Shown: positions 20,447 to 64,000 of the stretch, in pieces
Position numbering within the stretch: the stretch's first letter is position 1
Layout of the letters: each line of letters starts with the position of its first letter
Assembly (NCBI RefSeq): GCF_003261055.1
Contig: NZ_CP030073.1
Span: 3,224,001-3,288,000, forward strand
Origin: Streptomyces cadmiisoli
GTDB taxonomy: Bacteria; Actinomycetota; Actinomycetes; Streptomycetales; Streptomycetaceae
DNA length: 64,000 nt
Direction: 5' to 3'
Notes under the pieces: generated by a model
What the model was told of the DNA's origin: nothing
The model's input: only the letters and a program-made list of their open reading frames with translations
Databases searched by the model: none
Made by a program: the position numbers and the translations under genes

Positions 20447-21502
20447 TCACCCGCCCCCCGACCCCCAGTCCGTCCCCTCCACCTCCGCCGCCACCACATC
20501 CCCCGCCAGGCGGAAGACCAACGAGCCGAACAGGAACCCCGCTCCGATCGCGCCCAGGACGATGTGGTCGCCTCGGCGGGCCCGGCCCTCGTGGGCCAGG
20601 CGCCACAGGGCCGTCAGGGGGGAGGCCGCGGCCGTGTTGCCGAGGGTGTCGGCGGTGACGGGGACGCGTTCGGGGTCCGCGCCGGCCATCCGGCCGATCT
20701 GCCTCACCAGCTTGGCGTTCGCCTGGTGGACGGCGAATCCGCTGACCTCGTCCACGGTGACGCCGGCCGTCGAGAGCGCCTCGCCGAGGGACTTCGGGAC
20801 GCGGGTCATCGCCTCGCGGAGCACCACGTTGCCGTCCATGAAGATGTACGGCGACCGGGGTGTGTCCGTCGTCGACGTGGGGACCTCCTGGTGCAGGCGC
20901 CAGTGGTTCGGCAGGCGTACGGCGTCCGAGAAGACGTTGCCCAGGTCGTAGCTGAGCAGCCCGTCGGGGCCGTCCGACTTGCGCAGGACCACCGCGCCCG
21001 CCGCGTCGCCGAAGAAGATCCTGGTGACGCGGTCGTCGGGGTCGGTGATCCCGGAGCCGCGCTCGGCGCAGACGACCAGGGCGGTCTCCAGGCCCGGCTC
21101 CTGGAGGAGGCAGGCGGCGGTGTAGATGCCGTAGGCGGCGGAGGCGCAGGCGTGCTGGGTGAGGTCGATGATCCGCGGGGTCTCGATGCCCAGGCGCTCG
21201 GCCAGGCTCACTCCCAGCGAGGGCATGATCCAGTCCGGGGTGGTGCAGGCGACGAGCAGGACGTCGACCTCGCGGGGCCGGACGCCGTCCGCCGCGAGGG
21301 CCTTCTCGGCGGCCTCGGCGGCGAGGTCCAGCACGCTTTCGTGCGGCTCGAGGAAACGGCGTTCGCGGATCCCCGTCTTCTTCTCTATCCACTCCGGCGT
21401 GGTGTCCAGCGTCTCGCAGAGCTCGGCGTTGGTGACCACCCTGTCGGGCAGTGCCAGGGCGACGCTGCTGGGGCTGACGGGTGCGAGTTCCCACCTGGGC
21501 AT
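20447..21502 (-). CDS. FabH-like ketosynthase III, copy 1
   Basis: 351 residues, ATG 21502 with GGAGGAGG 6 bp upstream. The KSIII catalytic set is complete: C119 in LTQHACASAAYG, His in FAVHQAN and Asn in LGNTAAASPL. No ACP, KS-beta or PKS gene is in the window, so a fatty-acid or polyketide priming role is unlikely. In the benzoxazole pathways (A33853, nataxazole) a KSIII-like enzyme joins CoA-activated 3-hydroxyanthranilate units, and an AMP ligase and amidohydrolase of the same kind occur in this cluster, so an ester/amide-forming acyltransferase role is the favoured inference. Last gene of a minus-strand run with two NATs, the amidohydrolase and a SnoaL-like protein; 43 bp separate it from the first NAT. 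Confidence 0.82.
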   Translation of the reverse strand: MPRWELAPVSPSSVALALPDRVVTNAELCETLDTTPEWIEKKTGIRERRFLEPHESVLDLAAEAAEKALAADGVRPREVDVLLVACTTPDWIMPSLGVSLAERLGIETPRIIDLTQHACASAAYGIYTAACLLQEPGLETALVVCAERGSGITDPDDRVTRIFFGDAAGAVVLRKSDGPDGLLSYDLGNVFSDAVRLPNHWRLHQEVPTSTTDTPRSPYIFMDGNVVLREAMTRVPKSLGEALSTAGVTVDEVSGFAVHQANAKLVRQIGRMAGADPERVPVTADTLGNTAAASPLTALWRLAHEGRARRGDHIVLGAIGAGFLFGSLVFRLAGDVVAAEVEGTDWGSGGG

Positions 21503-21545
21503 GACGGCCTCCTCCTCGGTTCGGGGCTCGGGGGTGGGGCGGCGC

Positions 21546-22358
21546 TCAGTTCTCCTCGAACGCCATGCGTACCGAGTCCCGGAGATAGATGCTCGGGGCG
21601 GGCCGTTTCTCCAGCGTGATCCCGAACCACTTCTCGTACGCCGCCAGCACCGCGGCGTCGCCGGCGAGTTTCTCGGTCGTCCGGTCGCCTCCCCTGGTGA
21701 CGGTCAGCACGTCGTCCTTGAGGACGACCCAGCCGTCGTCCAGGGGCAGCGAGCAGAACATGTTCTGCAGGAGCATCGAGTCGGGGCTGGTCCGGTACCA
21801 GTAGATGACCTGGTCGAAGTCGGACAGGGCGGTCGGATCGTCGTGGACGCGGTACTGCGGTTTCCCGTCGCGCAGGATGTCGTGGGCGCGGTCGTCCACC
21901 TTCCGGACCGAGAAGACGCCGTGCGGGTCGTCCTGCGCCTCGGGCGAGTCGAGCAGGATCGGATAGCGGCTGCCCTTGCCGAACCCGACGTCGACGAGCC
22001 AGCGCGCGCCGTCGATCTCCGCCATGACCAGCAGGTGGTTGTACGGGTCGCGCAGCCGGCCGTCGATCCACACGCGCCCGTGGCGGACGTGCACGGTGAA
22101 GCCGAGGGCCTGGAGCAGGAAGTAGAAGGAGGAGTTGGTCTCGCCGCAGGCGCCGCCCCGGCGCTGGTGCACGATCTTGTCGACGATCCGCTCGTCCTTG
22201 TAGTGGATCTCCCTGCCGAGGTGGTAGTCGAGGCTTTCGAAAGGCACCGACATCACGTGCCGCTCGTGCAGATGCCGCAGTGCGGCGAGGTCGGGCCGGT
22301 CCGGGCGGTCCGCCGAGATGCGCTTCAGATAGGCGGCCGTCGTCGCTTCGTCCAGCAT
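21546..22358 (-). CDS. Arylamine N-acetyltransferase-type amide synthase, copy 1
   Basis: 270 residues with the NAT triad C71, H108, D123 in the motifs RRGGACGE, NHLL and DVGFG. NAT enzymes transfer acyl groups from CoA to arylamines; in clusters, relatives such as RifF close amide bonds on aminophenol-type starters. With anthranilate-like aromatic amines predicted here, an acyl transfer to the ring amine is the likely job. Adjacent to a second NAT (28 bp). Confidence 0.85.
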   Translation of the reverse strand: MLDEATTAAYLKRISADRPDRPDLAALRHLHERHVMSVPFESLDYHLGREIHYKDERIVDKIVHQRRGGACGETNSSFYFLLQALGFTVHVRHGRVWIDGRLRDPYNHLLVMAEIDGARWLVDVGFGKGSRYPILLDSPEAQDDPHGVFSVRKVDDRAHDILRDGKPQYRVHDDPTALSDFDQVIYWYRTSPDSMLLQNMFCSLPLDDGWVVLKDDVLTVTRGGDRTTEKLAGDAAVLAAYEKWFGITLEKRPAPSIYLRDSVRMAFEEN

Positions 22359-22386: not shown

Positions 22387-23196
22387 TCAGGTGTCGAACG
22401 AGAAACGGAGCGAGTTGTTCAGGTGCGGGCTCGGTACCGGACGCTCCTCCAGCCTGATCCCGAACCACTTGTCGTACGCCGCCAGGACCGCGGCGTCGTC
22501 GGCGAGCTTCTCGGTGCGCCGCTCGTCCCCGGTGGTGACGGTCAGCACGTCGTCGCGCAGGCTGACCCAGCCGTTCTCCAGGGGCAGCGAGCAGACCAGG
22601 TTCTGGAGGAACGGGGAGTCGGGGCTGGTGCGGTACCACCACATCGTCTGCCGGAAGTCGATCAGTTCGACGGGTTCCTCGTGGAGGACGTACTGCGGTG
22701 TCCCGTTGCGCAGCACTTCGACGGACCGCCGGTCCAGGCGCCGGACGTGGAACTCGCCGTGCGGGTCGGGCTGGGCGTCCTCGGTGCCGAGGCGCAGCGG
22801 CTGCCGGCTGCTCTTGCCGAACCCGATGTCGGCGATCCACCGCTGCCCGTCGACGGCCACCGTCATCAGGATGTGGTGGTACGGCGGTGTCGTGACGCCG
22901 TCCCCGATGTGCACCCGGCCCTGGTGCAGGGTCACGTCGTAGCCCAGTGACCGGAGCAGGAACCAGAACGCGGTGTTGATCTCACCGCACAGTCCGCCGC
23001 GGTGCTCGTGGACGACCTTGTCCACAGCCCGTTCGTCCATGCAGATCTCGGCGCCGCGGTGGTAGTCGAGGTTGTCGAAGGGCACCGACAGCACATGCCG
23101 TTCGTGCAGGTGACGCAGGGTCTCGGCGTCCAGGCGCCTGGGGTGCCGCGCCGAGATGCGGTCCAGGTAGGCGGCGACGGTCTTCTTGTCCAGCAC
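22387..23196 (-). CDS. Arylamine N-acetyltransferase-type amide synthase, copy 2
   Basis: 269 residues, GTG start. Triad C70 (HRGGLCGE), H108 (YHHI) and D123 (DIGFG) intact. About half the residues are shared with copy 1 by eye (for example HLHERHV.SVPF and the C-terminal AAVLAAYDKWFGI.LE.RP), so the two are tandem duplicates that have diverged, presumably for two different acyl donors or amines. Only 6 bp separate it from the amidohydrolase gene. Confidence 0.85.
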   Translation of the reverse strand: MLDKKTVAAYLDRISARHPRRLDAETLRHLHERHVLSVPFDNLDYHRGAEICMDERAVDKVVHEHRGGLCGEINTAFWFLLRSLGYDVTLHQGRVHIGDGVTTPPYHHILMTVAVDGQRWIADIGFGKSSRQPLRLGTEDAQPDPHGEFHVRRLDRRSVEVLRNGTPQYVLHEEPVELIDFRQTMWWYRTSPDSPFLQNLVCSLPLENGWVSLRDDVLTVTTGDERRTEKLADDAAVLAAYDKWFGIRLEERPVPSPHLNNSLRFSFDT

Positions 23197-23202
23197 GGCG
23201 TC

Positions 23203-24201
23203 TCACACGTCCTTTCCGGTGAAGCGCGGGAAGAGTGCCTCGGCGTTGCCGTGGTCGAGCCGCGCCCGGTCCTCGGCGCCGAACCCGCCGTACCGCACCA
23301 CCTGGTGACCGGTGTCGAGGGTGTACGACTCCGGCATGAGCGGGAAGTCCGAGCCGACCAGGATCCGGGTGGCCGGCGCGAAGGACCGCAGGGCGGCGAG
23401 CGCGTGCGGGTCGCCGGTCATGGCGATGTCGACGTAGAGCCGCCGCAGCGATCCGACGGGGTCGGCGGGGAGCCGCTCGGCCAGGGGCGGGCTGATCAGT
23501 CCGCCGCAGGCGAGCCGGCCGGCGTAGAAGGGGACGCCGCCCCCGCCGTGCGGCAGGATCACCGGCAGTTCGGGGAACCTCTCCAGCGTCTGGTTGTAGA
23601 GGAGTTGGCTGGCCACCCGGACCGTCTCGAAGGGGAACTCGTAGAGCGAGGCGGGCAGGCCGAGGCCGGGCTGGTCGGTGGCCGGGGGGAGGGTCGGGTG
23701 CACGAACAGCGGGCTGCGCCGGCGGGCCGCGGCGGCGAAGAGCGGGTCCATCGCCCGGTCCCCCACGTACAGCCCGGCGTAGTTGCTGACGAGCCCCACG
23801 CCGTCCAGGCCGAGAGTGTCGGCCGCGTACTCGAATTCCTGGAGTACGAGGTCCATATGGGGAAAGGGCAGGGTGGCGAAGGCGCCGAAGCGGCCGGGGT
23901 GCGCGGCGGCCAGTTCGGCGAGGTATTCGTTCACCCGGCGGGCGAATTCCGCGGCCGGCTTCGCCTCCAGGGTGGCCGGCACACCCGGCCACACGCTCAC
24001 CACCGCGCCGCGAATGCCATGGCGGTCCATCATGTCGAGGCTTTTGCGCGCGTTCCAGGTCGGCCTTTCGATCCCGGGCAGAATGGTCGCTACGCCCAGG
24101 TTCTCCAGTTCACCGAGATAGAAGTCCGGCAGGATGTGGTGATGTACGTCGATGGCCCGCGACCACGGCTTCGACGCGGGCGCCGCTGTGCTTTCCGGCA
24201 T
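23203..24201 (-). CDS. Amidohydrolase family 2 (ACMSD-like) enzyme
   Basis: 332 residues. Metal-binding HxH in IDVHHHILP near the N-terminus, a later His in LPHGGGGVPF and an Asp in ILVGSDFPLMPES are the amidohydrolase-2 ligands. Relatives decarboxylate ACMS or salicylate-type acids; in nataxazole and A33853 biosynthesis an amidohydrolase of this superfamily (NatAM, BomN) closes the benzoxazole ring by dehydrating an ester/amide of 3-hydroxyanthranilate. The presence of KSIII, AMP ligase and 3-hydroxyanthranilate-type genes makes the ring-forming role plausible, with decarboxylation the alternative. Confidence 0.83.
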   Translation of the reverse strand: MPESTAAPASKPWSRAIDVHHHILPDFYLGELENLGVATILPGIERPTWNARKSLDMMDRHGIRGAVVSVWPGVPATLEAKPAAEFARRVNEYLAELAAAHPGRFGAFATLPFPHMDLVLQEFEYAADTLGLDGVGLVSNYAGLYVGDRAMDPLFAAAARRRSPLFVHPTLPPATDQPGLGLPASLYEFPFETVRVASQLLYNQTLERFPELPVILPHGGGGVPFYAGRLACGGLISPPLAERLPADPVGSLRRLYVDIAMTGDPHALAALRSFAPATRILVGSDFPLMPESYTLDTGHQVVRYGGFGAEDRARLDHGNAEALFPRFTGKDV

Positions 24202-24219: not shown

Positions 24220-24636
24220 TCAGGCCCGGCTCGTGCCGGGCGGATTGCTGATCAGGCAGCGCCAGACGCCGTCGGAGCCGCGCCGCAGGATGTCCGCGGC
24301 GGTGCCTTCCAGACGCAGGTGCTTGCCGTCCGGACCGGTTCCCTCGTGCACGTAGTCGCAGATCATGAGGGCCGTGTCGCCGGCCGTGTAGATGTGGCGG
24401 ACCGACAGCTTGACGGGCAGGCGCTCGGGCAGTGTCTCCGCCGCCGCCTTCCACATCTGCTCACCGCTCTGGGCATGGCCGGGTGAGAGCACACGGACGG
24501 CCTGCGGGTCGAAGAGCTGCCGGATGCCTTCGATGCTGCCCGAGTTGAATGCCTGCTCGAAGGCGGCGGGAAGCTCCGCGGGATCGGTCGGAAGGGCGAT
24601 CTGCTCGCCTGTGGGATTCACCATGGGGAACAGCAC
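24220..24636 (-). CDS. SnoaL/NTF2-like protein
   Basis: 138 residues from GTG 24636 (ATG at 24624 is an equally possible start; neither has a clear ribosome site). Small alpha+beta NTF2-like fold: helix FEQAFNSGSIEGIRQLFDP, then strands ending WRCLISNP, as in DUF4440/SnoaL-like proteins. Such proteins act as cyclases, isomerases or hydroxylases in antibiotic pathways, but no catalytic residues can be assigned. First gene of the 20.4-24.6 kb minus-strand operon; divergent from the WrbA-like gene with 200 bp between. Confidence 0.65.
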   Translation of the reverse strand: MLFPMVNPTGEQIALPTDPAELPAAFEQAFNSGSIEGIRQLFDPQAVRVLSPGHAQSGEQMWKAAAETLPERLPVKLSVRHIYTAGDTALMICDYVHEGTGPDGKHLRLEGTAADILRRGSDGVWRCLISNPPGTSRA

Positions 24637-24836: not shown

Positions 24837-25517
24837 ATGGTCAAAGTGGCCATCATCTTCCATTCCCGGAGCGGAAACATCTTCCGGCTGGCGTCGGCGG
24901 CGGCCGCGGCGGCGGAGAAGGCGGGCGCGGAGCCGAAGCTGCTGAAGGTTCCCGAGCTGCCCGACCCGATGGTGCTGGACAAGGAGGCCTACGCCGAACT
25001 GGGCGAGGCCACCCGCGACATCCCGGTCGCGACGCTGGAGGACCTCGTCGAGGCGGACGCGATCATGATCGGCACGCCGGTCCACTTCGGTCTGCCGGCG
25101 CCGCAGCTCCTGCACTTCTTCGACCGGTCCGGGCCGGTCGCGATCCCGGGAAAGCTGGCGAACAAGGTCGCGACGGTGTTCGCCTCCGGCTCGGCCGCGC
25201 ACGCCGGGCAGCAGGCGACGATCATGGCCGTGCACAACGTGCTGTGCCACTGGGGCTGCCTGATCGTGCCGAACGGTTCGAGCGTGGAGGTCCTGGCGTC
25301 CGAGCACAACGGTTCGCCGTACGGCACGTGCAGCATCTCCCGGCACGCGCCCGACAATGTGCACGAGGACAACCTGCGGGCGATCGAGTACCAGACCCTG
25401 CGCCTGGTGGAGGTCGCCACCGCCTACGGGATCGGGCTCGGGCAGACCGAATCCGCCATCGAGTACGTCGACATGGGCTTCCTGATGAAGAAGTTCCCCC
25501 GTCTGTCCGTGGACTGA
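24837..25517 (+). CDS. WrbA-like NAD(P)H:quinone oxidoreductase (flavodoxin fold)
   Basis: 226 residues, ATG with GAGGAG 6 bp upstream. FMN-binding loop SRSGNIFRLA near residues 9-18, then GTPVHFG and FASGSAAHAGQQ, the flavodoxin-like/WrbA pattern. Such enzymes do two-electron reduction of quinones. In an aminophenol pathway it could keep o-quinone or quinone-imine intermediates reduced, or protect the producer. Divergent from the SnoaL-like gene. Confidence 0.85.
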   Translation: MVKVAIIFHSRSGNIFRLASAAAAAAEKAGAEPKLLKVPELPDPMVLDKEAYAELGEATRDIPVATLEDLVEADAIMIGTPVHFGLPAPQLLHFFDRSGPVAIPGKLANKVATVFASGSAAHAGQQATIMAVHNVLCHWGCLIVPNGSSVEVLASEHNGSPYGTCSISRHAPDNVHEDNLRAIEYQTLRLVEVATAYGIGLGQTESAIEYVDMGFLMKKFPRLSVD

Positions 25518-25724: not shown

Positions 25725-25752
25725 GCAGGAAGTCGGCTTGCAGGAGGAACTC

Positions 25753-26457
25753 GTGAAACTGGTCATGTTCGGCGCGAACGGCCCGACCGGACGGCTGGCC
25801 ACCGAGCAGGCGCTCGCCGAGGGCCATTCCGTCACCGCCGTGACCCGCCGGCCCGACGCGTTCCCGCTGAGCGGCGCCGGGCTGACCGTGGTCGGGGCGG
25901 ACATCCTGGACCCCGACGCGGTGGACCGTGCGGTGGCCGGTCACGACGCGGTCCTGTCGACCGTCGGTGTGCCGTACACCAAGGAGCCGGTGACGGTGTA
26001 CTCGGCGGGCACCGCGAACGTCGTCAAGGCGATGCAGACGCACGGCATCCGCCGCCTGGTCTGCGTCAGTTCGATCGGGGTGAACTACGAGGACGCCCCG
26101 GGCGAGGCCTTCATCTTCCGGAAGGTGATCGTGCCGGTGCTGCTCAAGATGGGCCGCCCTCTCTACGAGGACGCGGCGCGGATGGAGGACGTGGTGCGCG
26201 GCAGCGGACTGGACTGGACGATCATCCGCCCGGCCGGTCTCTTCGACGCGACCACCACGACCGACTACATCGTCAGCGAGCCCCGCCACCCGGGCTGGTT
26301 CACCTCGCGCAAGGACCTGGCGGACGCGCTGGTGCGCGAGGGCGTCGACGACCGCAATCCCGGTTCCGTCGTCGAGGTCATCACCACCCAGGGCGTGCCC
26401 AGCTACTTCCAGGTGTTCATGAAGGAAGCGCTGCACATCGGCGGCAGCAAGAAGTAG
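25753..26457 (+). CDS. NmrA-like NAD(P)-binding protein, copy 1
   Basis: 234 residues from GTG 25753 with GGAGGA 6 bp upstream. N-terminal dinucleotide motif GANGPTGR, an extended SDR (NmrA/YwnB) family without a clear YxxxK triad; the segment SSIGVNYEDAPG is where that triad would be. It may be an atypical reductase/isomerase or a redox sensor. A second member at 28777-29448 is paralogous and has a similar promoter, so both belong to one regulon, most simply that of the neighbouring TetR. Confidence 0.8.
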   Translation: MKLVMFGANGPTGRLATEQALAEGHSVTAVTRRPDAFPLSGAGLTVVGADILDPDAVDRAVAGHDAVLSTVGVPYTKEPVTVYSAGTANVVKAMQTHGIRRLVCVSSIGVNYEDAPGEAFIFRKVIVPVLLKMGRPLYEDAARMEDVVRGSGLDWTIIRPAGLFDATTTTDYIVSEPRHPGWFTSRKDLADALVREGVDDRNPGSVVEVITTQGVPSYFQVFMKEALHIGGSKK

Positions 26458-26540: not shown

Positions 26541-27545
26541 TCAGCCGGCCCGCAGCAGGGTCAGCCCCATGGACATGCCGCCGCCGAACGCCGCCAGCAG
26601 CACCAGGTCACCGTCGGCCACCGTGCCCGAACGGGCCAGCTGGTCCAGGGTGATGGGGACGGAGGCCGCGCCGGTGTTGCCGTAGCGCGTCACCGTGGTG
26701 GCCATCCGTTCCGAGGGGATGCCCAGGCGCCGGGACATGGTCTCCAGGAGCCGTCCGTTCGCCTGGTGCGGGACGAAGTGCACCGTCCGGTCGCGCCGCA
26801 CCCCGTTGTCCGCGAGGAACTGCTCGATGCCGGGGACGACCCGGGTCTCCACGAACTCGGTCACGCCCCGGCCGTCCATGGCGAAGTACTGCCTGCCCTC
26901 GCGCAGCGTCTCCTGGGTCGCGGGCATCCGGCTGCCTCCGCCGGGTACGCCGATGAGGTCGCGGGCGGTGCCGAAGCTGGCCAGCCGGGTGGAGAGCAGC
27001 CGCTGCCGGCCGCCCGGGCCGAGCACGACGGCCCCGGCGCCGTCCCCGAACAGCACCGTCGTGCGGCGGTCGGTGGGCGAGAGGATGCGCGAGTACACGT
27101 CGGCGCCGATGACCAGGGCGTACTCGGCCGAGGTGCCGGCGAGCATCCGGTCGGCGATGGACAGCGCGAAGGCGAAGCCGCTGCACACCGAGTTCACGTC
27201 GAAGGCGGCGGTGCCGTGGCCGGCGCCCAGTTCGTCGGCGACGACACAGGCCGTCGCGGGCTGCGGGGAGTCCGGGGTGGAGGTCGCCACGACGATGAGG
27301 CCGAGGTCGGCGGCGCCGATGCCGGCCTGTTCGAGTGCGGCCCGGGCGGCGGCCACGGCGAGGTCCGAGGTGGCCTCCTCGGGCTTGGCCCAACGCCGTT
27401 CACGGATCGCCGTCTTGCGCAGGATGGCCTCCTCGGAGACCCCGACCAGGCTGCTCATGTCCTTGTTGTCGATGACGCGACTGGGTACGTAGGCCCCCGT
27501 ACCGAGCACGCCCCGTGCACCCTGGGCGGCACCGCATGTGATCAT
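26541..27545 (-). CDS. FabH-like ketosynthase III, copy 2
   Basis: 334 residues from ATG 27545 (GGAG 7 bp upstream; the ATG 12 codons earlier has none). All three catalytic residues are present: C121 in DVNSVCSGFAF, His in VPHQANGR and Asn in RYGNTGAAS, close to canonical FabH. It is more FabH-like than the copy at 20447-21502, and a monocistronic unit. As no ACP gene is present it may use CoA substrates, either as a second acyl-transfer enzyme of the aromatic assembly or to make a short acyl chain. Confidence 0.85.
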   Translation of the reverse strand: MITCGAAQGARGVLGTGAYVPSRVIDNKDMSSLVGVSEEAILRKTAIRERRWAKPEEATSDLAVAAARAALEQAGIGAADLGLIVVATSTPDSPQPATACVVADELGAGHGTAAFDVNSVCSGFAFALSIADRMLAGTSAEYALVIGADVYSRILSPTDRRTTVLFGDGAGAVVLGPGGRQRLLSTRLASFGTARDLIGVPGGGSRMPATQETLREGRQYFAMDGRGVTEFVETRVVPGIEQFLADNGVRRDRTVHFVPHQANGRLLETMSRRLGIPSERMATTVTRYGNTGAASVPITLDQLARSGTVADGDLVLLAAFGGGMSMGLTLLRAG

Positions 27546-27880
27546 GGTCTGCTCCAATGTCGTCCTGACAGGTACGGGCACACGCCGGCGTCGGCCGCGA
27601 CAGGGAACAGGGCCAGTGGCAGGCCCCTCCGTCCGTGTGCCGTGCGCCCCGCCGCTCCCGGCGGCTCCGCCCGAGTGCCGGTCCGGCGCCGTGCGGGGAA
27701 CGGCGTGCCGGGGCCCGCGCAGCCGCGTGGAATCAGAACAGTTCGCGCACGTCCCGAGGTCCAGCCGGTGCTCGCGGATCTGTCAGATGAGCCCGCGCGG
27801 AGGGATCGACTCCGGCCAATTCGGTGGCCGGAGCGGGGGACGTACGAGGAAGGAGGGGGACGTGGACGGCGCGCCGGGCG
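27546..27880. other. Gap between KSIII copy 2 and the TetR gene
   Basis: 335 bp with no supportable gene. It carries the hairpin at 27810-27833 that would terminate the TetR transcript, and the promoter of the KSIII gene must be near 27570-27600 but shows no strong consensus. Confidence 0.4.
27810..27833 (-). terminator. Hairpin terminator after the TetR gene
   Basis: Perfect 9-bp inverted repeat CTCCGGCCA / TGGCCGGAG with a 6-base loop, 48 bp past the TetR stop on the minus strand. Confidence 0.65.
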
Positions 27881-28594
27881 TCAGGCTCCGGGCGCGAGCT
27901 GGGCGTCCAGGCCGTCGAGGAGGTACTTCAGGCCCAGTCGGAAGTTCTGCTCCCAGTCGTCGTCGAGCATGTACTCGTACGTGCTGAGGGTGGGGTACCG
28001 GTCCTTCTGCAGGGTCAACCGCTCCTGCGCGGCGGTCCGTTCGTCGCTCGTCCAGCGCAGGCTCGACTGGCTCGCGGTGGAACCCTGGACGTGGTTGTAC
28101 AGTACCCAGCAGGCGGCCTGGACCTGCCGCCCCTCGAATCCGGCCCGCGCCAGCGTCGCCTGGAGGAACTCCAGCCATGCGAGGAAGTTCGGTCCGATCG
28201 AGGGCCGTTGCCGCAGGGGCAGCGCCGCGGACCACGGGTGCCGCAGCAGCATGTCCCGGCATCCGGAGAGGAGTGCCACCACATTCTCCTGCCAGCTGCC
28301 GGTCCCCGGGTCGGGGAGCGGGGCCTCGGCGAAGATGGCGTCGATCGCCAGGTCGATGACGTCGTCCTTGGTGTCGATGTGCCAGTACAGCGTCGTGGCA
28401 CCCGCGCCGAGTCGCTCCGCGAGACGGCGCATGGTCAGCCGCTCCATGCCCTCCTCGTCGAGCAGGGCGACGGCCGCCTCGGTGATGCGCTCCCTGGACA
28501 GCGGCGGCTCGTTGCGCGGTGTCGGCGGCTGCCGCAGCCAGACGCTCTGTGCGGCACCGGAGCTCGCGCGACCGCGGCTCCGTGGCTTGCTCAC
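27881..28594 (-). CDS. TetR-family transcriptional regulator
   Basis: 237 residues from GTG 28594 (GGTGAG 4 bp upstream; ATG 28624 is an alternative adding ten residues). The helix-turn-helix is in LSRERITEAAVALLDEEG through RLTMRRLAERLGAGATTLYWHI, about residues 33-75, followed by a TetR C-terminal (TetR_C) type ligand domain. It is divergent from an NmrA-like gene whose promoter shares a 20/25 sequence with another NmrA-like promoter, so it most likely represses both and itself, with a pathway compound as ligand. Confidence 0.88.
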   Translation of the reverse strand: MSKPRSRGRASSGAAQSVWLRQPPTPRNEPPLSRERITEAAVALLDEEGMERLTMRRLAERLGAGATTLYWHIDTKDDVIDLAIDAIFAEAPLPDPGTGSWQENVVALLSGCRDMLLRHPWSAALPLRQRPSIGPNFLAWLEFLQATLARAGFEGRQVQAACWVLYNHVQGSTASQSSLRWTSDERTAAQERLTLQKDRYPTLSTYEYMLDDDWEQNFRLGLKYLLDGLDAQLAPGA

Positions 28595-56169: not shown

Positions 56170-57498
56170 TTGGCGAATGTTCTCGTGGCGACGGCGCCGG
56201 CCGAGGGCCATGTCAATGTCATCATGCATCTGGTGAAAGAGCTGGTACGCCGCGGAAACACCGTGACCTGGTACACGGGCAAGGTTTTCCGGGACCGCGT
56301 CGAAAGGACCGGGGCGGCATTCTCACCGATCGTCTCCGGATTCGACTACGGCGGAATGACGCACGACGAGGCGTTTCCGCACCATGCGGGGCTCACCGGC
56401 GTCAGGGGAATGGTCGCGGTGTTCCGTGACGTGTTCCTCGGCACCGCGCCCGACCAGTTGCGGGACCTCTCGGCCCTCGCCGACGAACTGAAGCCGGACG
56501 TGATCGTCACGGACGAGACCACGTACGCGGGCGGGTTCCTGAGCGAGCTGAAGGGGATTCCGCTGGTCTGGACGGCCACGTCGATCTACACGCTCGGCAG
56601 CCGGGACACCGCGCCCTTCGGCATGGGCCTGAAGCCCAGCTCCTCCTTCCTCGGGCGGCTGCGCAACCGGACGCTGAAGTGGACCGCGGACCACGTCCTC
56701 ATGCGTGAACTGCGCCGCGTCGCGGACCGGACGCGGGCCGAGGTGGGCCTGGCGCCGATCGCCGCCGGCGCGTTCGAGAACATCGTCCGGATGCCGTCGC
56801 TGTACCTGCTGGGGACGGTGCCGTCCTTCGAGTACCCGCGCAGCGACCTGCTGCCGCAGACCCGGTTCGTGGGCCCCATCACGGGAACGGCCTCCGACGA
56901 GTTCGAGGCGCCGCACTGGTGGGACGACCTGCGGGCGCACGACACCGTGGTGCACCTCACGCAGGGCACCGTCGCCAACGAGCCGGAGCGGCTGCTGCGG
57001 CCGGCGATCCGCGCGCTGTCCGCCCTCGACGCGCTGGTCGTCGTGACGACCGGGGTGCCGCCGGAGCAGCTCGACCTGGGTCCGCTGCCGGACAACGTCC
57101 GGGTGGAGCGCTTCGTCCCGTACCACCACCTGCTCCCGCACGCCGACCTGCTCGTCACCAACGGCGGATACGGCGGTGTGACCGCGGCGTTGAGCAACGG
57201 TGTCCCGCTGGTCGTGGCCTCGGCCACCGAGGACAAGAACGAGGTCGGCGCGCACGTCGGCTGGTCGGGGGCAGGCGTCCACCTCAAGAGCGGCGACGAC
57301 CTGGAGCGCCGGCTGGGCGAGGCGGTGCGGCGCGTGCTGAGCGAGCCGTCCTTCCGCGCGCGGGCGGAGCGGTTCGGCGCGGAGTACCGGGCGCTGAACG
57401 GGCCGCGCCGCGCCGCCGAGCTCATCGAGGAGCTGGCGGGCGGCGCCGGCCCCCGGGCGGGCGGCCCGGAGCGGGAACGGTCCCCGCGTCACGCGTAG
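56170..57498 (+). CDS. Macrolide-type (UGT/GT1) glycosyltransferase
   Basis: 442 residues with a TTG start at 56170: GAGAGG is 8 bp before it and only this start gives the conserved first strand ANVLVATAPAEGHVN. C-terminal nucleotide-sugar site VPYHHLLPHADLLVTNGGYGGVTAAL and GVPLVV. It should attach the TDP-aminodeoxyhexose to the aromatic core. It is the only glycosyltransferase and the only plus-strand gene of this section; it overlaps the aminotransferase gene by 10 bp in the convergent sense. Confidence 0.9.
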   Translation: MANVLVATAPAEGHVNVIMHLVKELVRRGNTVTWYTGKVFRDRVERTGAAFSPIVSGFDYGGMTHDEAFPHHAGLTGVRGMVAVFRDVFLGTAPDQLRDLSALADELKPDVIVTDETTYAGGFLSELKGIPLVWTATSIYTLGSRDTAPFGMGLKPSSSFLGRLRNRTLKWTADHVLMRELRRVADRTRAEVGLAPIAAGAFENIVRMPSLYLLGTVPSFEYPRSDLLPQTRFVGPITGTASDEFEAPHWWDDLRAHDTVVHLTQGTVANEPERLLRPAIRALSALDALVVVTTGVPPEQLDLGPLPDNVRVERFVPYHHLLPHADLLVTNGGYGGVTAALSNGVPLVVASATEDKNEVGAHVGWSGAGVHLKSGDDLERRLGEAVRRVLSEPSFRARAERFGAEYRALNGPRRAAELIEELAGGAGPRAGGPERERSPRHA

Positions 57499-58658
57499 CG
57501 CACCGCGGCGGCGATCACGTCGCAGATGCGGTCCACATCGTCCGGAGTCACCGACAGCCCGGTCGGCAGGGCGAGCACACGCTCCGTCAGCGTCTCGGTC
57601 ACCGAGAGGTCGACGGGCGTGTGCACGGTCTCCCGCCGGTAGGGCGGCATGGTGTGGCAGCCCGGCGAGAAGTACTTCTTGGTGCGCACGTTCTCCGCGT
57701 CGAGGACGGCCATGAGCCGGTCCCGGTCCAGGCCCGCCGCCTCGGGGTCCACCCGTACGACGACGTACTGGTGGTTGTGCGTCTGGCCCTGCGGCGCCGC
57801 CATCAGGGACACCCCGGGCACGTCGGCCAGGCCCGTCCGGTAGCGCGTGTACAGGGCGCGGTAGACCTTCAGCATGTCGTCCAGGTGCTCGACGGAGGCG
57901 ATGCCCATCGCCGCGGACGACTCGTTCATCTTCGCGTTGGTGCCCGGGCCGACGACGTCCATCGTCTCGTCGAAGCCGAAGTTGTGCATCGACCGCACGC
58001 GCGCGTGCACCTCGGCCGAGTCCGTGGCGACGAGCCCGCCCTCGAAGCAGTTCAGGATCTTCGTCGCGTGGAAGCTGAACACCTCCGCGGCGCCGGCCGG
58101 GGCCGGCCGCAGGGGCAGGCACCCGAACGCCTGGGCGGAGTCGAAGACGAGCGGCACGCCCGCCTCCCTGGCCACGTCGTCGAGTCCGGCCGTGTCGCAG
58201 AGGTTGCCCCAGATGTGGACGCCAAGGATGCCGCCGGTGCGCGGCGAGACGGCCTTGGCGACAGAGCGCGGATCGAGGGTGCCCGTCTCGGGATCGACGT
58301 CGGCGAAGACCGGGGTGAGGCCGATCCAGTCCATCGCGTGGGCACTCGCCACGAAGGTGAACGACGGCATGATCACCTCACCGGTGACCCCGCACGCCTT
58401 CACGGCGACCTGCAGCGCGGTGGTGGCGTTGTTCGTGGCGGTGTTGTGCGCGCGCAGGGTCCGCTCGGCCGCGAGCGCCTCGAACCGCCGCACCAGCGGC
58501 CCGAGGTTGCTCAGCCAGCGGCGGTCGATGGCCTCGCCCACCAGTTCCAGGTAGCGGTCCTTGGCGGGGACGTTCGGGGTCCCGACCCTGATGTCCTCGG
58601 CGAAACCCGGCGTACCCCCGTAGTACGCCAGGTCGCTCCGGGTCCGTTTGGTCCTCAC
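57489..58658 (-). CDS. DegT/DnrJ-type PLP aminotransferase (sugar)
   Basis: 389 residues, GTG start coupled to the flavin reductase stop. PLP Lys in SFHATKILNCFEGG, with NNATTALQVA and MPSFTFVASAHA, the DegT/DnrJ/EryC1 sugar aminotransferase pattern. With the 2,3-dehydratase present it most likely aminates C-3 of the 2,6-dideoxy-3,4-diketo sugar. Some family members are dehydratases, but the Lys makes amination likely. Confidence 0.9.
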   Translation of the reverse strand: MRTKRTRSDLAYYGGTPGFAEDIRVGTPNVPAKDRYLELVGEAIDRRWLSNLGPLVRRFEALAAERTLRAHNTATNNATTALQVAVKACGVTGEVIMPSFTFVASAHAMDWIGLTPVFADVDPETGTLDPRSVAKAVSPRTGGILGVHIWGNLCDTAGLDDVAREAGVPLVFDSAQAFGCLPLRPAPAGAAEVFSFHATKILNCFEGGLVATDSAEVHARVRSMHNFGFDETMDVVGPGTNAKMNESSAAMGIASVEHLDDMLKVYRALYTRYRTGLADVPGVSLMAAPQGQTHNHQYVVVRVDPEAAGLDRDRLMAVLDAENVRTKKYFSPGCHTMPPYRRETVHTPVDLSVTETLTERVLALPTGLSVTPDDVDRICDVIAAAVRYA

Positions 58659-59173
58659 GACGCCGCCGGCCAGACGGCGTAGCCGCGCAGCCCGTACATC
58701 AGTGGTCGCGGGGCCGGCCAGGTCAGCGACCGCTCGACCTCGCCGAAGACCACGGTGTGGTCACCGACGGAGTCGGCCCGCACCACCCGGCAGTCGGCCA
58801 CCGCGTGCGCCACGTCCGGCAGATGCGGTCCCCCGCAGCCGGGCGGGTCCTCCCACTTCACACGGTCGAACCGGTCGGAGGCGCCCGACGCGAACAGCTC
58901 CGCCGCCGGGCGCCCGGCCTCGCCCAGCAGGTTGACCGAGAAACGGTCCTGGTCCAGTACGGCGCCCAGCGTCGGGCTCCCGTTCCGTAAGCAGATCAGC
59001 AGGGTCGGCGGCCGCAAGGTGACACTGCTCAGCGACGAACACGTCATGCCCCACGGCCGCCGGGCCGCGTCGAACGCCGTGACCACCGAGACGCCGGTGG
59101 GAAATCCGGCCATCAGCTCGCGAAATTCCCCCGGTGCGAGAGTGGCCGCCGAAGGGGTGTTGGGTGCGATCAT
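58655..59173 (-). CDS. Flavin reductase (halogenase partner)
   Basis: 172 residues: FPTGVSVVTAFD, GMTCSSLSSVTLRPPTLLICL, FSVNLL and a C-terminal GD-HTVVFGEVE, typical of the flavin reductase-like/HpaC family. It supplies FADH2 to the halogenase 45 bp upstream. Codon 62 is TTA, so the pair may be bldA-limited. Confidence 0.93.
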   Translation of the reverse strand: MIAPNTPSAATLAPGEFRELMAGFPTGVSVVTAFDAARRPWGMTCSSLSSVTLRPPTLLICLRNGSPTLGAVLDQDRFSVNLLGEAGRPAAELFASGASDRFDRVKWEDPPGCGGPHLPDVAHAVADCRVVRADSVGDHTVVFGEVERSLTWPAPRPLMYGLRGYAVWPAAS

Positions 59174-59218: not shown

Positions 59219-60793
<1,575 letters not shown>

Positions 60794-60806: not shown

Positions 60807-61670
60807 TCAAGAACGGGGCAGGCCGCGCAGTGAATCGGGCAGACGGTCGAGATTGACCATGTTGCACCAGGTGCTCGCGGGCTCGGTCATTCCATGGAGG
60901 GCGCCGTATTCCTCGCCCGCCTTGGTCAGCAGGAAATGCAGATCGCTCGCCAGTCCGACGAAGCTGAACCCGTCGTCGATGCGGTCGCGGACGGAGGCGG
61001 AGTCCCGGCACAGGGTGCCGTAGGGGACGCCGTGCTCGCGGCAGGCCTCGGTCACGGTGCGCACGGCCTCCTGGAACGCCGGCTCCGGGCTCCAGAACTT
61101 GGCCGGCAGGCCCAGTGACAGATGCAGGTCGTTGGGGCCGATGAAGACCAGGTCGATGCCCTCGACGGCGAGGATCTCCTTGATGTTCGCCACGCCCTGC
61201 GCCGTCTCGATCTGGACGCCGACGAGGATCTCGTCGTTGGCCTGCGCGATGTAGTCCGGCGCGTTCACACCGAAGCCCACGTGCGGGAGCATGCCGCCGC
61301 CGCCGCGCTCGCCGTGCGGCGGGAACCGGGCGAAGCGCACCGCGTCGGCCGCTTCCTCGGCGGAGTTCACCATGGGCACGATCACGCCCTGGGCGCCCGC
61401 GTCCAGCGCGTGCTTGATGTGGTCGACGGTGCCCGCGGCGACCCGGGCGACCGGAGTGACCTCACCGGCGCTCAGATCGGAGATCGCGCCGAAGATGTTG
61501 CTCGCGGTCGCGTGGTCGACCGGGGTGTGCTCGAAGTCCACCAGCATCCAGCGGAAGGCGCCCTGCGCGACGAGCAGCCTGGTCGCCGGAACACTGTGCA
61601 ACTGGAGCCAGGTACCGACCGCCGGACTTCCCTGCCGAATCAGTTCGAGCGTCTTATTGGTGCGCAGCAT
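60807..61670 (-). CDS. HpcH/HpaI-type class II aldolase
   Basis: 287 residues from ATG 61670. Metal/substrate blocks VDFEHTPVD, IETAQGV and GPNDLHLSLG match HpcH/HpaI aldolases that cleave or form 4-hydroxy-2-oxo acids. In this setting it could split a side chain from a 2-oxo acid made by the neighbouring dehydrogenase, or add a C-C bond to pyruvate. No known pathway assignment. Confidence 0.88.
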   Translation of the reverse strand: MLRTNKTLELIRQGSPAVGTWLQLHSVPATRLLVAQGAFRWMLVDFEHTPVDHATASNIFGAISDLSAGEVTPVARVAAGTVDHIKHALDAGAQGVIVPMVNSAEEAADAVRFARFPPHGERGGGGMLPHVGFGVNAPDYIAQANDEILVGVQIETAQGVANIKEILAVEGIDLVFIGPNDLHLSLGLPAKFWSPEPAFQEAVRTVTEACREHGVPYGTLCRDSASVRDRIDDGFSFVGLASDLHFLLTKAGEEYGALHGMTEPASTWCNMVNLDRLPDSLRGLPRS

Positions 61671-62838
61671 CAGCCTGTGTCCTCTTCCGGTTGTCCACGT
61701 GCAGTCCGTGGGCGACAAGAAATTCCTCGATCCGCTCGGTGACGGTGGCGAAGATCGCCTGAATCGTCTCCCGGTCGGCTCGTTCCGTCTTCAGCAGTTC
61801 GGCGAACAGAATCGCCGCACCCGAGTTGGAAACCCATTCCGGGACGATGGTCACGCCCTGCCGGATCCAGTGCGCCTTCACCTCGTGCGTGGAAAAGGCG
61901 TTATTGGCTCCGCAGACCACGACCTGGCCAAAGTCGCGGACGAACTCCCGCATGACGGAGTCGGTCACCGCGTAGCGGGTGGCGCACGGGGTGAGCACCT
62001 CGGGCCCGGTGACCGCGACGAACTCCGTGAGGAGGTCCTCGTCCGACTGGCCGGCACCGCGCGGCACCCATTTCCAGCCCCTTTGCGGGTCCTGCCGCAC
62101 CAGTTCGCCGAAGGCGGCCCGGTCGGTCCCCTCGGCCCGGCGGCGCAGCAGCTCCGCCACGTCGATGCCGTCGTGGTCGACGAGGTAGCCGTCCTTCTCG
62201 CAGATGCCGGTGACGAGGCCGATGCCGCGGGAGGTGAGCGAGTCCGCGGTGTTGGAGCCGACGCTGCCGAATCCCTGGATCGCCACCCGGGGCCGCCCGC
62301 CGGCGGACAGCCGGATCGACTCCGCGACCGAGTGGCCGGTGGCGGCGTCGTCCACGGTGGCGTGGTCGTTCCACGTCCGGGACAGCCGCTGCGGCATGGC
62401 CGGCGCCTGCGAGGGGATGCCCGCGTGCCGGGCCAGCGTCGCGGCCATCGCGGTGAACGCCGTGGGCAGCGCGAGGTCCTCGCGGGCTATGCGCTCGATG
62501 ACCTCCCTGCTGGTGTACAGGTCGGCGCCGGTGCTCCACTCGCGGGCGATGACGTCCCGGTGCGCGATCATGAACCGGCGCAGGACGCCCTCGGCCTCCG
62601 GCGAGGCGGGGTCGAAGCGGATGCCGCCCTTGCCGCCGCCGAACCGTGGGCGCTGGAGGGTGTTCTTCAGCGTCATGGTGGCGGCGAGGTCGGCCACCTC
62701 GGACAGCGTGACGCGCGGGTGCATGAAGAGGCCACCGCCCGAGACACCGCCGATCAGGCTGTCGATGACCAGCCATCCCTCTGCTTCGGTCAGGTCGTCC
62801 CGCCAGTGGAAAACCTTGGCGAATTGGGTCGTGCTCAC
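61654..62838 (-). CDS. Glu/Leu/Phe-type amino acid dehydrogenase
   Basis: 394 residues, GTG 62838. Catalytic GGGKGGIRFDP and a Rossmann GFGSVG later, the Glu/Leu/Phe/Val dehydrogenase superfamily. It may oxidise tryptophan or chlorotryptophan to the indole-pyruvate, as does the family member ScyB in scytonemin synthesis, or another amino acid. Overlaps the aldolase by 17 bp, suggesting that they work in sequence. Confidence 0.85.
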   Translation of the reverse strand: MSTTQFAKVFHWRDDLTEAEGWLVIDSLIGGVSGGGLFMHPRVTLSEVADLAATMTLKNTLQRPRFGGGKGGIRFDPASPEAEGVLRRFMIAHRDVIAREWSTGADLYTSREVIERIAREDLALPTAFTAMAATLARHAGIPSQAPAMPQRLSRTWNDHATVDDAATGHSVAESIRLSAGGRPRVAIQGFGSVGSNTADSLTSRGIGLVTGICEKDGYLVDHDGIDVAELLRRRAEGTDRAAFGELVRQDPQRGWKWVPRGAGQSDEDLLTEFVAVTGPEVLTPCATRYAVTDSVMREFVRDFGQVVVCGANNAFSTHEVKAHWIRQGVTIVPEWVSNSGAAILFAELLKTERADRETIQAIFATVTERIEEFLVAHGLHVDNRKRTQADAAHQ

Positions 62839-62845
62839 GACGTGT

Positions 62846-64000
62846 TCACCCTCCGATCGGCCGCAGCGGCTGAGCCGCCGCGGTGCCGCGGCGGTCACGT
62901 GAGTAGATGTCGAGGGCTTCCCGGTAGCTGGAGCTGGCGAAGTTGACCAGCGTGGGAAGCGGGGTGGCGCCGGCCGCGGGACGCGGTCCGGTGCCGTTCA
63001 ACTCGTCGTAGTTGGCCAGCGACAGGGCCGAGGCGGCCTCGTGCTCCGGCACGCGCTCGCGCTGGAACTCGGCGAGGGCGGTGCCCTGTTCGTCCGGCCA
63101 CTTCTCCAGGACCCGGGTGAGGGCGGCGCAGTCCTCCAGGCCGAGGTTGACGCCCTGTCCGAGGAAGGGCGCGACGGTGTGCGCCGCGTCGCCGAGCAGC
63201 ACCACCGAGTCGGCGTGCACGACCGGCGCGCAGTTCACCACCGAGATCGGAGTGACCGGCACCCGTGCCGGGTCCGGTTCGACGGGGCGGTGGATCGCGG
63301 CCGCGTCGGGGAAGCCGCGCCGCAGGAAGTCCCGCAGCGCCTCCTCGGTGGCGAGGCCGGCGAAGGTGAGAGCGCCCTCGCGGGGCAGGACGAGCGTGCA
63401 GCGCAGGGAGCCGTCCCGGTTCGGCAGCCCGACCATGAAGAAGCCGTCCCGGGGCCAGACATGGATCGCCCTCGGGGACATGCGCTCGTCCCCCGGCTCC
63501 GGCCGCAGCGTGATCTCCCGGTACTCGACACCGGTCTGCCGCTGCCGGCACCGCGTCAGGCCCTGCTCGGCGAGCCGCTCGCGGACCACGGAGTGGGTGC
63601 CGTCGGCGCCCACGAGCAGGTCGTACCCGACCTCGACCGGCCGGCCCCGCCGGTCGGTGAAGGTGGCCCGGCGGGCGGCGAAGTCCACGCCGGTGCACTC
63701 GGTCTCGAAGGTGAACCGCACGCCGGGGCCCGCACTGCGCATCAGCAGTACGTTCAGGTCGTTGCGGTCGATCGACAGGTTCTCCCAGTCGGCGCGGCCG
63801 TAGCCGGCGGCGGCGATCCGGCCGTCCGGCTCATGGCGCACCCGGCTGTCCATCGGCACCACCAGCTCCGCCAGCGCCGCACGGTCGCAGTGGCCGTCCA
63901 GCGCCTCGGTGCCGCGGGGTGAAAGGGACAGATTGATCGTGCGGCCGTCGTAGCGCAGGCCGCTCTCGACGTAGTGGGGGCGCTTCTCGTGGACCTCGAC
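62846..64000 (-). CDS. Kynurenine 3-monooxygenase-like flavoprotein (partial, runs off the right edge)
   Basis: The frame is open to base 64000, so the N-terminus with the FAD glycine motif is missing; 384 residues are seen. VEVHEKRPHY, GRTINLSLSPRG and VPMDSRV near the visible start, and PFLGQGVNLGLEDC near the end, match kynurenine 3-monooxygenase in place of the salicylate or PHBH types. It would 3-hydroxylate (chloro)kynurenine, on the way to 3-hydroxyanthranilate. The gene at 34945 is a distinct group A monooxygenase. 7 bp before the dehydrogenase. Confidence 0.82.
   Translation of the reverse strand, partial: VEVHEKRPHYVESGLRYDGRTINLSLSPRGTEALDGHCDRAALAELVVPMDSRVRHEPDGRIAAAGYGRADWENLSIDRNDLNVLLMRSAGPGVRFTFETECTGVDFAARRATFTDRRGRPVEVGYDLLVGADGTHSVVRERLAEQGLTRCRQRQTGVEYREITLRPEPGDERMSPRAIHVWPRDGFFMVGLPNRDGSLRCTLVLPREGALTFAGLATEEALRDFLRRGFPDAAAIHRPVEPDPARVPVTPISVVNCAPVVHADSVVLLGDAAHTVAPFLGQGVNLGLEDCAALTRVLEKWPDEQGTALAEFQRERVPEHEAASALSLANYDELNGTGPRPAAGATPLPTLVNFASSSYREALDIYSRDRRGTAAAQPLRPIGG

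Follow-up and report, generated by a model that had tools for sequence, protein, structure and literature searches.

In the 64-kb window analysed here (positions 3224001-3288000 of the 10.24 Mb genome of Streptomyces cadmiisoli; G000:C1:3224001-3288000), we identify a biosynthetic locus that begins at position 20447 of the window and, as an earlier note on this DNA had anticipated, continues beyond its right edge, reaching about 76.05 kb in window coordinates (~12 kb further). Comparisons of the predicted proteins indicate that the region is a series of neighbouring pathways of known kinds, not one new pathway, and that a second species here carries the diazaquinomycin-akashin locus known from Streptomyces sp. 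F001. Very probably it is made up of three parts, namely a diazaquinomycin (daq) cluster, a separate isonitrile/aminodeoxysugar cluster and an operon for akashin. For the last of these we tentatively propose, with a probability slightly below one half, that an amino-acid dehydrogenase, a C3-hydroxylase resembling kynurenine 3-monooxygenase (KMO) and a retro-aldolase of the HpaI type together convert (5-chloro)tryptophan to 3H-indol-3-one and pyruvate, with the involvement of neither a tryptophanase nor a cytochrome P450.

The gene models used throughout are open reading frames (ORFs) picked by GC-frame, with approximate starts and with small ORFs omitted. They were named by NCBIfam and Pfam profile searches, complemented for selected proteins by sequence matches in the PDB (Table 1).

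The locus is shared with Streptomyces sp. F001

All 48 proteins tested, whose genes start at 20447 and run on for about 12 kb beyond the right edge, have counterparts within 80 kb of the F001 contig QZWF01000007 (NZ_QZWF01000007; G196:C7, F001 being our genome G196), at the threshold of at least 45% identity and 60% coverage applied to F001 and to the two genomes, G032 and G058, considered below. Gene order is the same, and of the 46 proteins with identities 44 fall at 80-96%, the others being the SRPBCC protein (76%) and the CPA2 antiporter-like protein (79%); the isonitrile synthases of the two strains are 88% identical. F001 makes both diazaquinomycins and akashin A (PMC6509518), and its daq cluster sits on this same contig (PMC9946207). 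GW48/1497, the original source strain of akashin, also produced a diazaquinomycin (PMC8706298). The present locus would represent a second genome with the diazaquinomycin-akashin pair.

The block at 20447-38358 brings together two NAT homologues, KASIII genes and a 3-hydroxyanthranilate set. Two NATs of F001 are daqS and daqT of MIBiG BGC0001850, which act on a diaminohydroquinone and a beta-ketoacyl-CoA (PMC11213898), and the F001 daq cluster, cloned as 23.5 kb, yielded diazaquinomycins in S. coelicolor (PMC8706298). In our coordinates the block of F001 that reaches from the ORF preceding SRPBCC as far as KASIII (a) measures 23.6 kb. Given the identity of daqS/daqT, the similar lengths of these two spans and the synteny, 20447-38358 is predicted to be the daq cluster, its function being carried over from F001 by synteny and family. 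When compared with the F001 contig rather than with the MIBiG record itself, BGC0001850 and the window share the same genes at 76-91% protein identity, inclusive of both NATs, both KASIIIs, the 3-hydroxyanthranilate set and an IS701 transposase lying inside the cluster; as the latter is at the same place in F001 (85%), it is not a recent insertion. By this synteny the block that the earlier note had taken for a "benzoxazole-type assembly" is instead the diazaquinomycin module. A benzoxazole of the nataxazole, A33853 or caboxamycin type, which the 3-hydroxyanthranilate genes, the amidohydrolase and KASIII had suggested, was dropped since the whole block matches the F001 daq contig. A phenazine was likewise considered, as a plasmid match has in common with a phenazine cluster its genes for DAHP synthase, isochorismatase and anthranilate synthase; neither PhzF nor PhzG was among the families matched here, though no search was made for them by name. 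Paulomycin was another candidate that was set aside, with no paulomycin gene entering the comparison.

The encoded pathway is expected to lead from chorismate to 3-hydroxyanthranilate, and from there to a diaminohydroquinone, onto which the two NATs would load beta-ketoacyl units provided by the KASIII enzymes. The window copy shows several losses. Its phzE is without ~395 residues (~1.2 kb), corresponding to positions 40-435 of an open frame that in F001 comprises 630 residues, and the part after the gap is out of frame with the start; the loss takes the entire chorismate-binding domain, which F001 retains ("aminase" domain), such that the daq cluster in the window has no complete ADIC synthase (PhzE). 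Elsewhere in the genome two loci encode a two-domain PhzE-like protein in one frame, 55% identical in one case and 53% in the other, while at a third locus PhzE-like halves lie in different frames (50% and 43%); either of the two-domain proteins could perhaps stand in for the truncated one. Further, two stretches of F001 are missing from the equivalent sites of the window. One, of ~1.2 kb, bears a zinc-binding dehydrogenase gene and is located between SRPBCC and the 2,3-dehydratase; the other, of ~3.3 kb, is next to phzE and contains the greater part of a gene encoding an FAD/NAD(P)-binding protein.

The isonitrile/aminodeoxysugar genes as a cluster of their own

The middle part of the locus codes for a PvcA/DIT1-family isonitrile synthase, as the earlier note had noticed. 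Its DIT1_PvcA domain is near full length (PF05141 profile positions 3-266 of 273), and it scores 258 bits with the NCBIfam PvcA model, below the 600-bit cut-off thereof. Around it lies a set of genes that recurs in G032 and G058, of which we read 60 kb and 80 kb respectively (the G032 contig being that of S. aurantiacus L040). Both carry PvcA, the P450s (a) and (b), FMO2, a second glycosyltransferase (GT2), RmlA, RmlB, RmlC, the DegT2 aminotransferase, the 4-ketoreductase, the 2,3-dehydratase, a major facilitator superfamily (MFS) protein, the ABC transporter pair and a helix-turn-helix regulator; altogether 19 of the 48 genes are present in G032 and 17 in G058, which is without CPA2 and NanM. 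In these stretches no daq gene was found at threshold, and neither were GT1, DesI, the flavin reductase, the halogenase, the aldolase, the ELFV dehydrogenase, the KMO-like monooxygenase, the FAD oxidase, the N-methyltransferase, AsnB or the second ABC ATPase. Sub-threshold matches exist, with DesI at 30-31% to another aminotransferase in both genomes and DhbA at 33% in G032. Because the set is found without the genes of the daq cluster or the halogenase operon in both of the two genomes read, we take the isonitrile/aminodeoxysugar genes, on this comparative evidence, to be a cluster of their own, interleaved with the rest of the locus.

That the whole locus instead encodes one hybrid pathway, with a single chlorinated and glycosylated product built from hydroxyanthranilate, tryptophan and an isonitrile, is in our estimate very improbable. 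The contiguity of all the genes in two species, here and in F001, argues for such a pathway, as the genes were possibly co-inherited for a reason. Against it stand the isonitrile set of G032 and G058, which the other sets do not accompany in the 60 and 80 kb read, the diazaquinomycins obtained when the F001 daq block was expressed alone (PMC8706298), and the production by F001 of two separate compound classes (PMC6509518). The earlier note had envisaged a chlorinated and glycosylated (hydroxy)anthranilate/tryptophan product of one unfamiliar cluster. The enzymes behind this idea are indeed encoded, and chlorination and glycosylation of a tryptophan-derived product appear likely; it is the joining of everything into one product that gives way, as does the single cluster, given that the isonitrile set occurs apart from the rest. 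The note had also named a near-complete match to a characterised cluster as what would overturn its proposal. Such a match is seen for the left half (diazaquinomycin, MIBiG BGC0001850, with the losses described above), while for the halogenase part it is only approached, by the candidate akashin region of F001 discussed below. Its statement that polyketide synthases (PKS) and nonribosomal peptide synthetases (NRPS) are wanting agrees with our scan, in which the genes examined between 20447 and the right edge yielded no multidomain PKS or NRPS; KASIII (a) cross-matches a chalcone-synthase N-terminal domain (35 bits, over cut-off) and the acyl-CoA ligase an NRPS adenylation domain (89 bits, below cut-off).

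A candidate akashin operon

What remains after subtraction of the daq and isonitrile sets is an operon on the minus strand at 57489-64084, whose genes overlap or are separated by 7 to 45 bases, together with a divergent glycosyltransferase gene (GT1) from 56200. By their predicted functions, these genes fit akashin A, a glycosylated 5,5'-dichloroindigo. From a synthesis out of 5-chloroanthranilic acid and galactose, akashin A is a dichloroindigo bearing an N-linked, gluco-configured 4-amino-6-deoxy sugar (PMC11552416). The tryptophan halogenase of the operon, which upholds the earlier note's halogenase, is without a further match in this genome at E <= 1e-30; its best PDB score, with the 5-halogenase 8fov (833 bits), is followed by a 6-halogenase (814 bits) and a second 5-halogenase, 2wet (679 bits). 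Halogenation at position 5 is hence likely, and the enzyme would make 5-chlorotryptophan.

The aminodeoxysugar genes that the note had reported are likewise present, in the form of RmlA, RmlB, RmlC, the 4-ketoreductase-like protein, the NDP-hexose 2,3-dehydratase, the DesI-like aminotransferase and glycosyltransferases. Among them are genes for 4-amino-4,6-dideoxyglucose and its transfer, with RmlA and RmlB over their cut-offs and the DesI-like protein and glycosyltransferase over those of Pfam but below those of NCBIfam. The sugar fits, since a DesI-type aminotransferase would give the 4-amino-6-deoxy sugar of akashin A. RmlA, RmlB and DesI are predicted to make dTDP-4-amino-4,6-dideoxyglucose, which the glycosyltransferase would attach to dichloroindigo; RmlA and RmlB could supply both sugars of the locus.

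The F001 region upstream of daq has already been proposed for akashin, with two P450s suggested to make indigo by analogy with CYP102G4 (PMC9946207); in the literature searched we found no other published proposal of akashin genes. This region (QZWF01000007.1.region003) holds halogenase, deoxysugar and glycosyltransferase genes beside daq, with operon genes 85-90% identical to those of the window. Our analysis separates gene sets that the proposal treats together, in that the isonitrile cluster with its P450s is split off and akashin is assigned to 56200-64084. We regard it as unlikely that akashin is made here from chloroindole oxidised by the two P450s. The published proposal and the presence of two P450 genes speak for it, but both P450s have 77-82% identical homologues in isonitrile clusters with no halogenase operon nearby, no tryptophanase match is present in either genome to supply the indole, and the dehydrogenase, monooxygenase and aldolase of the operon would be left without a task.

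Another alternative, quite unlikely in our view, is that the operon makes a different chlorotryptophan-derived glycoside and that the akashin of F001 comes from its second halogenase locus. Outside contig 7, at G196:C2:880487-882010, F001 does encode a further tryptophan halogenase of 65% identity, which is also a point against our assignment. On the other side, it is in the contig-7 operon that a 4-aminotransferase and a glycosyltransferase adjoin the halogenase, and the single F001 match to the monooxygenase at E <= 1e-50 is on contig 7.

A predicted dehydrogenase-hydroxylase-aldolase route to indigo

We infer the chemistry of the route favoured here from that of the enzyme families. The ELFV-family enzyme would oxidise 5-chlorotryptophan to 5-chloroindole-3-pyruvate. 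The KMO-like monooxygenase would then hydroxylate C3, giving a 3-hydroxyindolenine with a pyruvyl arm (HO-C3-CH2-CO-COOH). Such a product would be a 4-hydroxy-2-oxo acid, and therefore of the substrate type of HpaI aldolases. From it the HpaI-type aldolase would release pyruvate and leave 5-chloro-3H-indol-3-one (C8H4ClNO), two of which have the composition of 5,5'-dichloroindigo (C16H8Cl2N2O2). No described dehydrogenase-aldolase route to indigo was found in the literature searched.

Each of the three enzymes retains residues of its family. The homologue lists comprise one representative per 90% cluster and contain 43 dehydrogenases, 34 monooxygenases and the best 120 of 213 aldolases. The ELFV enzyme keeps K78, K90 and D126 (P0003 numbering), which are conserved in at least 95% of the best 22 of the 43 homologues. 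In glutamate dehydrogenases the lysine of the GxxKGG motif holds the gamma-carboxylate; the window enzyme, in contrast, has a glycine in its place, and the position is occupied by Gly in 30 of the 43 homologues and by Ser in one, with 12 unmatched by the pattern. The aldolase, when aligned to 2v5j, keeps the metal-ligand and catalytic set of HpaI in the form of D45, E47, H48, R76, D90, E155 and D181 (P0080 numbering; at least 95% of the best 40 of the 120 listed homologues), these being the residues to which we assign those roles.

The monooxygenase is nearest to KMO among solved structures, KMO and VioC being of the same FAD monooxygenase family. It keeps Arg85, Tyr99, Asn362 and Glu365 (at least 90% of the best 30 of the 34 homologues), which align with KMO residues that we take to hold the amino-acid/carboxylate end of the substrate. 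In a midpoint-rooted tree, 13 monooxygenases that share a contig with the aldolase, along with that of the window, lie on the opposite side of a branch with support 100/99 from 24 KMO-like sequences (22 from the class sample and two from the genus sample).

The genes of the trio also tend to occur together. Contig sharing was inferred from longest contigs of identical length, and the number expected by chance was estimated by shifting the lengths. The dehydrogenase and monooxygenase share 14 contigs, one of which is that of the window, as against 0.03 by chance; the monooxygenase and aldolase share at least 13 (with the best 120 of 213 aldolases) as against 0.11; and all three are found on one contig in at least six cases (same aldolases), the chance figure for dehydrogenase and aldolase being 0.12. 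Missing pairs mean little, because each 90% cluster has a single representative and only the best 120 of 213 aldolases entered. Sources of the triple include S. tubercidicus, S. roseifaciens and Saccharothrix obliqua, and those of the monooxygenase-aldolase pair Kribbella deserti and an Amycolatopsis. Adjacency of the three genes was seen directly in the window and F001, and elsewhere it is sharing of a contig that is inferred.

In samples of 392 genomes from the genus, 394 from the class and 394 from the family, which may overlap, the monooxygenase has no match of at least 80% identity beyond this genome and F001, the other matches being 33-40% identical (two genomes in the genus sample and 20 in the class sample). 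For the dehydrogenase, 196 of 391 order genomes have a match, and among the matches listed none exceeds 42% except in this genome. Plasmids gave no match to the dehydrogenase at 1e-30, and three to the monooxygenase at 32-37%.

A search for tryptophanase gave no match at E <= 0.001 in this genome or F001, while four of 14 control genomes matched, one of them, which we take to be E. coli, over the cut-off. Free indole is accordingly without an obvious source, although other indole-releasing enzymes were not searched for. This bears on the alternative that akashin is made here by the monooxygenase forming indoxyl from free chloroindole, released by some other lyase (for instance a TrpA-like indole-glycerol-phosphate lyase or a pyridoxal-phosphate enzyme outside the locus), with the dehydrogenase and aldolase serving elsewhere. 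Indigo-forming monooxygenases that act on indole are well known. Nevertheless, we consider this version unlikely, as the monooxygenase keeps the KMO residues presumed to bind the carboxylate end, which free indole does not possess, and shares contigs with the aldolase in at least 13 cases.

Several further points weigh against the dehydrogenase-aldolase route and the tripartite assignment around it. The three enzymes may act towards a different indole product. The choice between positions 5 and 6 is uncertain, with the 6-halogenase close behind and one of the two 5-halogenases lower. The matches to DesI, MGT, flavin reductase, HpaI and VioC are all below the NCBIfam cut-offs, and akashin biosynthesis in F001 is itself a proposal. 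Gene functions throughout the locus are assigned from sequence comparison, and the FAD oxidase, the N-methyltransferase and AsnB have no firm place in the scheme. With the truncated phzE and the two lost stretches, production of diazaquinomycin by this strain is in doubt, and the phzE loss suggests that part of the locus may be decaying in it.

If the route is correct, it would explain natural chlorinated indigo from chlorotryptophan in strains without a recognisable tryptophanase. Given the trio in Streptomyces and Saccharothrix, and the pair in Kribbella and Amycolatopsis as well, there may be a whole family of indigoid or indolone pathways that has gone unrecognised, for the discovery of which the gene pair would serve as a marker. 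It would, moreover, offer a redox-balanced enzymatic route to substituted indigos.

Affinities of the isonitrile cluster

In the isonitrile cluster, PvcA is predicted to form an amino-acid isonitrile, which P450 (a) and P450 (b) would oxidise or couple and to which GT2 would attach the aminodeoxysugar. Part of this set is shared by the isonitrile/aminodeoxysugar clusters of four 21-kb loci (L038, L039, L041 and L042). Past the right edge, at 71852-76052 in window coordinates (L007-L008), are genes for AsnB, an MFS protein and a second ABC ATPase, which are 86-90, 77-80 and 86-89% identical to those of three other loci (L053, L069 and L076) and closer to this widespread type of isonitrile locus than to the glycosylated type. 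In those loci the order is ABC-MFS-AsnB-P450a-PvcA, whereas in the window AsnB lies 28 kb away from PvcA. Because AsnB, MFS and the ABC ATPase resemble the other locus type, two types of cluster seem to be combined, mosaic-like, in the isonitrile part. Loci of the L053/L069/L076 type we presume to be hazimycin-type isonitrile chalkophore clusters.

The FAD-linked oxidase at 53060 has relatives at 30-32% in four isonitrile loci (L049, L056, L057 and L083), and could serve either the last indigo oxidation or isonitrile chemistry. A rhabduscin-type isonitrile glycoside, an idea that came from DesI, was set aside, as DesI was not among the genes recovered from the clusters with the isonitrile set alone. 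Elsewhere in the genome a second isonitrile synthase, of 41% identity, occurs at G000:C1:7553040-7555527 (L002, L004), where it adjoins a 656-codon frame with weak Trp_halogenase matches.

Gene content of the locus and its left flank

Table 1. Predicted genes of the locus (window coordinates; cut-offs are those of the named models; percentages are protein identities). Rows from KASIII (a) to SRPBCC are assigned to the daq module, those from the 2,3-dehydratase to RmlB to the isonitrile/aminodeoxysugar module (the FAD-linked oxidase being unplaced, and RmlA and RmlB possibly serving both sugars), and those from GT1 to the KMO/VioC-like monooxygenase to the akashin candidate
Feature	Position	Strand	Matches and comparison
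KASIII (a)	20447..21502	-	NCBIfam PRK09352 259 bits, over cut-off 249; 88% to F001
NAT-type N-acyltransferase (a), one of daqS/daqT	21546..22358	-	PF00797 184 bits; 91% to F001
NAT-type N-acyltransferase (b)	22387..23196	-	PF00797 191 bits; 85% to F001
Amidohydrolase	23203..24201	-	PF04909 105 bits; 86% to F001
SnoaL-like protein	24220..24636	-	PF14534/PF12680; 87% to F001
WrbA-like flavoprotein	24837..25517	+	NF002999 127 bits, below cut-off 141; 91% to F001
NAD(P)-binding reductase 1	25747..26457	+	PF13460 151 bits; 90% to F001
KASIII (b)	26541..27581	-	TIGR00747 fabH 304 bits, over cut-off 292; 88% to F001
TetR-family regulator	27881..28774	-	PF00440, PF02909; 85% to F001
NAD(P)-binding reductase 2	28747..29448	+	PF13460 118 bits; 82% to F001
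IS701-family transposase within daq module	29852..31189	+	NF033540 292 bits, over cut-off; 85% to F001
Class II DAHP synthase, start approximate	31483..32670	+	PF01474 420 bits; 82% to F001
DhbA-like dehydrogenase (probably to 3-hydroxyanthranilate)	32723..33493	+	TIGR04316 346 bits, over cut-off 300; 88% to F001
PhzD-like isochorismatase (PhzD-like by place in set)	33527..34150	+	NF008517 hydrolase 45 bits, below cut-off; 85% to F001
Truncated phzE	34147..34814	+	PF00117 (GATase) on 34254-34814; first ~30 codons kept, out of frame with remaining GATase domain; anthranilate-synthase domain missing
FAD monooxygenase, 3-hydroxybenzoate-6-hydroxylase-like	34945..36132	-	NF006021 445 bits, just below cut-off 459; 85% to F001
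Acyl-CoA ligase/adenylate-forming enzyme	36142..37710	-	NF004837 128 bits, below cut-off; 91% to F001
SRPBCC (polyketide cyclase-like)	37792..38358	-	PF10604 47 bits; 76% to F001
NDP-hexose 2,3-dehydratase	38803..40194	-	PF03559 509 bits; 77% in G032 and G058
NDP-hexose 4-ketoreductase-like (named from context)	40191..41282	-	Epimerase/dehydratase families below cut-offs; 77% in G032, G058
RmlC-type epimerase	41273..41884	-	TIGR01221 117 bits, below cut-off 156; 69%/75% in G032/G058
RmlA, glucose-1-phosphate thymidylyltransferase	41881..42762	-	TIGR01207 423 bits, over cut-off; 86% in G032 and G058
Isonitrile synthase (PvcA/DIT1 family), start approximate	42759..43706	-	PF05141 256 bits; 73-78% in L038-L042
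Cytochrome P450 (a), probable isonitrile synthase partner, start approximate	43849..45120	-	P450 families; adjoins PvcA in related loci, e.g. L037-L043
Cytochrome P450 (b)	45641..46855	-	P450 families; 81-82% in G032 and G058
ABC-2 transporter permease	47209..48063	-	PF01061 104 bits; 62-68% in G032/G058
DrrA-type ABC ATPase	48063..49067	-	TIGR01188 361 bits, over cut-off; 72-78% in G032/G058
Permease-prefix-domain protein	49852..50607	+	NF038403 43 bits, over cut-off; assigned to isonitrile module by G032/G058 comparison
CPA2 antiporter-like	50703..52085	-	TIGR00932 121 bits, below cut-off; in G032, not found in G058
NanM-type sugar O-methyltransferase	52022..52936	-	TIGR04371 149 bits, over cut-off; in G032, not found in G058
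FAD-linked oxidase like BagK/FevA1, unplaced	53060..54418	-	NF041226 332 bits, below cut-off 800; PF01565; not found in G032/G058
DUF2269-like membrane protein	54411..54977	-	PF10027 20 bits, below cut-off; 63%/59% in G032/G058
RmlB, dTDP-glucose 4,6-dehydratase	55006..56028	-	TIGR01181 402 bits, over cut-off 365; 64-65% to RmlB beside RmlA in G032/G058
Glycosyltransferase (GT1), divergent, start approximate	56200..57498	+	PF06722 73 bits, over cut-off; TIGR01426 MGT 170 bits, below cut-off 260; not found in G032/G058
DesI-like dTDP-4-keto-6-deoxyglucose 4-aminotransferase	57489..58658	-	PF01041 310 bits; TIGR04427 464 bits, below cut-off 650; in G032/G058 only 30-31% to another aminotransferase
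Flavin reductase for halogenase	58655..59173	-	NF045630 95 bits, below cut-off 230; not found in G032/G058
Tryptophan (5-)halogenase	59219..60769	-	Trp_halogenase PF04820 464 bits; best PDB match Trp 5-halogenase 8fov, 833 bits
HpaI-family class II pyruvate aldolase, proposed retro-aldolase	60807..61670	-	TIGR02311 166 bits, below cut-off 369; catalytic residues kept
ELFV-family amino-acid dehydrogenase, proposed chlorotryptophan dehydrogenase	61654..62838	-	PF00208/PF02812, over cut-offs
KMO/VioC-like FAD monooxygenase, proposed indole C3 hydroxylase	62846..64084 (window ends 64000)	-	NF053548 VioC 104 bits, below cut-off; KMO best in PDB
Aminotransferase (DegT2)	64149-65300, past right edge		Carried by G032 and G058

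To the left, the cluster is bordered by a Dpd-type 7-deazaguanine DNA modification system at 1-18672 of the window. Its genes code for DpdH, DpdF, DpdE, two DpdB proteins, DpdA, DpdC, a QueC-like protein, a radical SAM protein, FolE2 and a vitamin-transporter-like protein, and its G+C content is 63-69%, as against 67-76% in the rest of the window.

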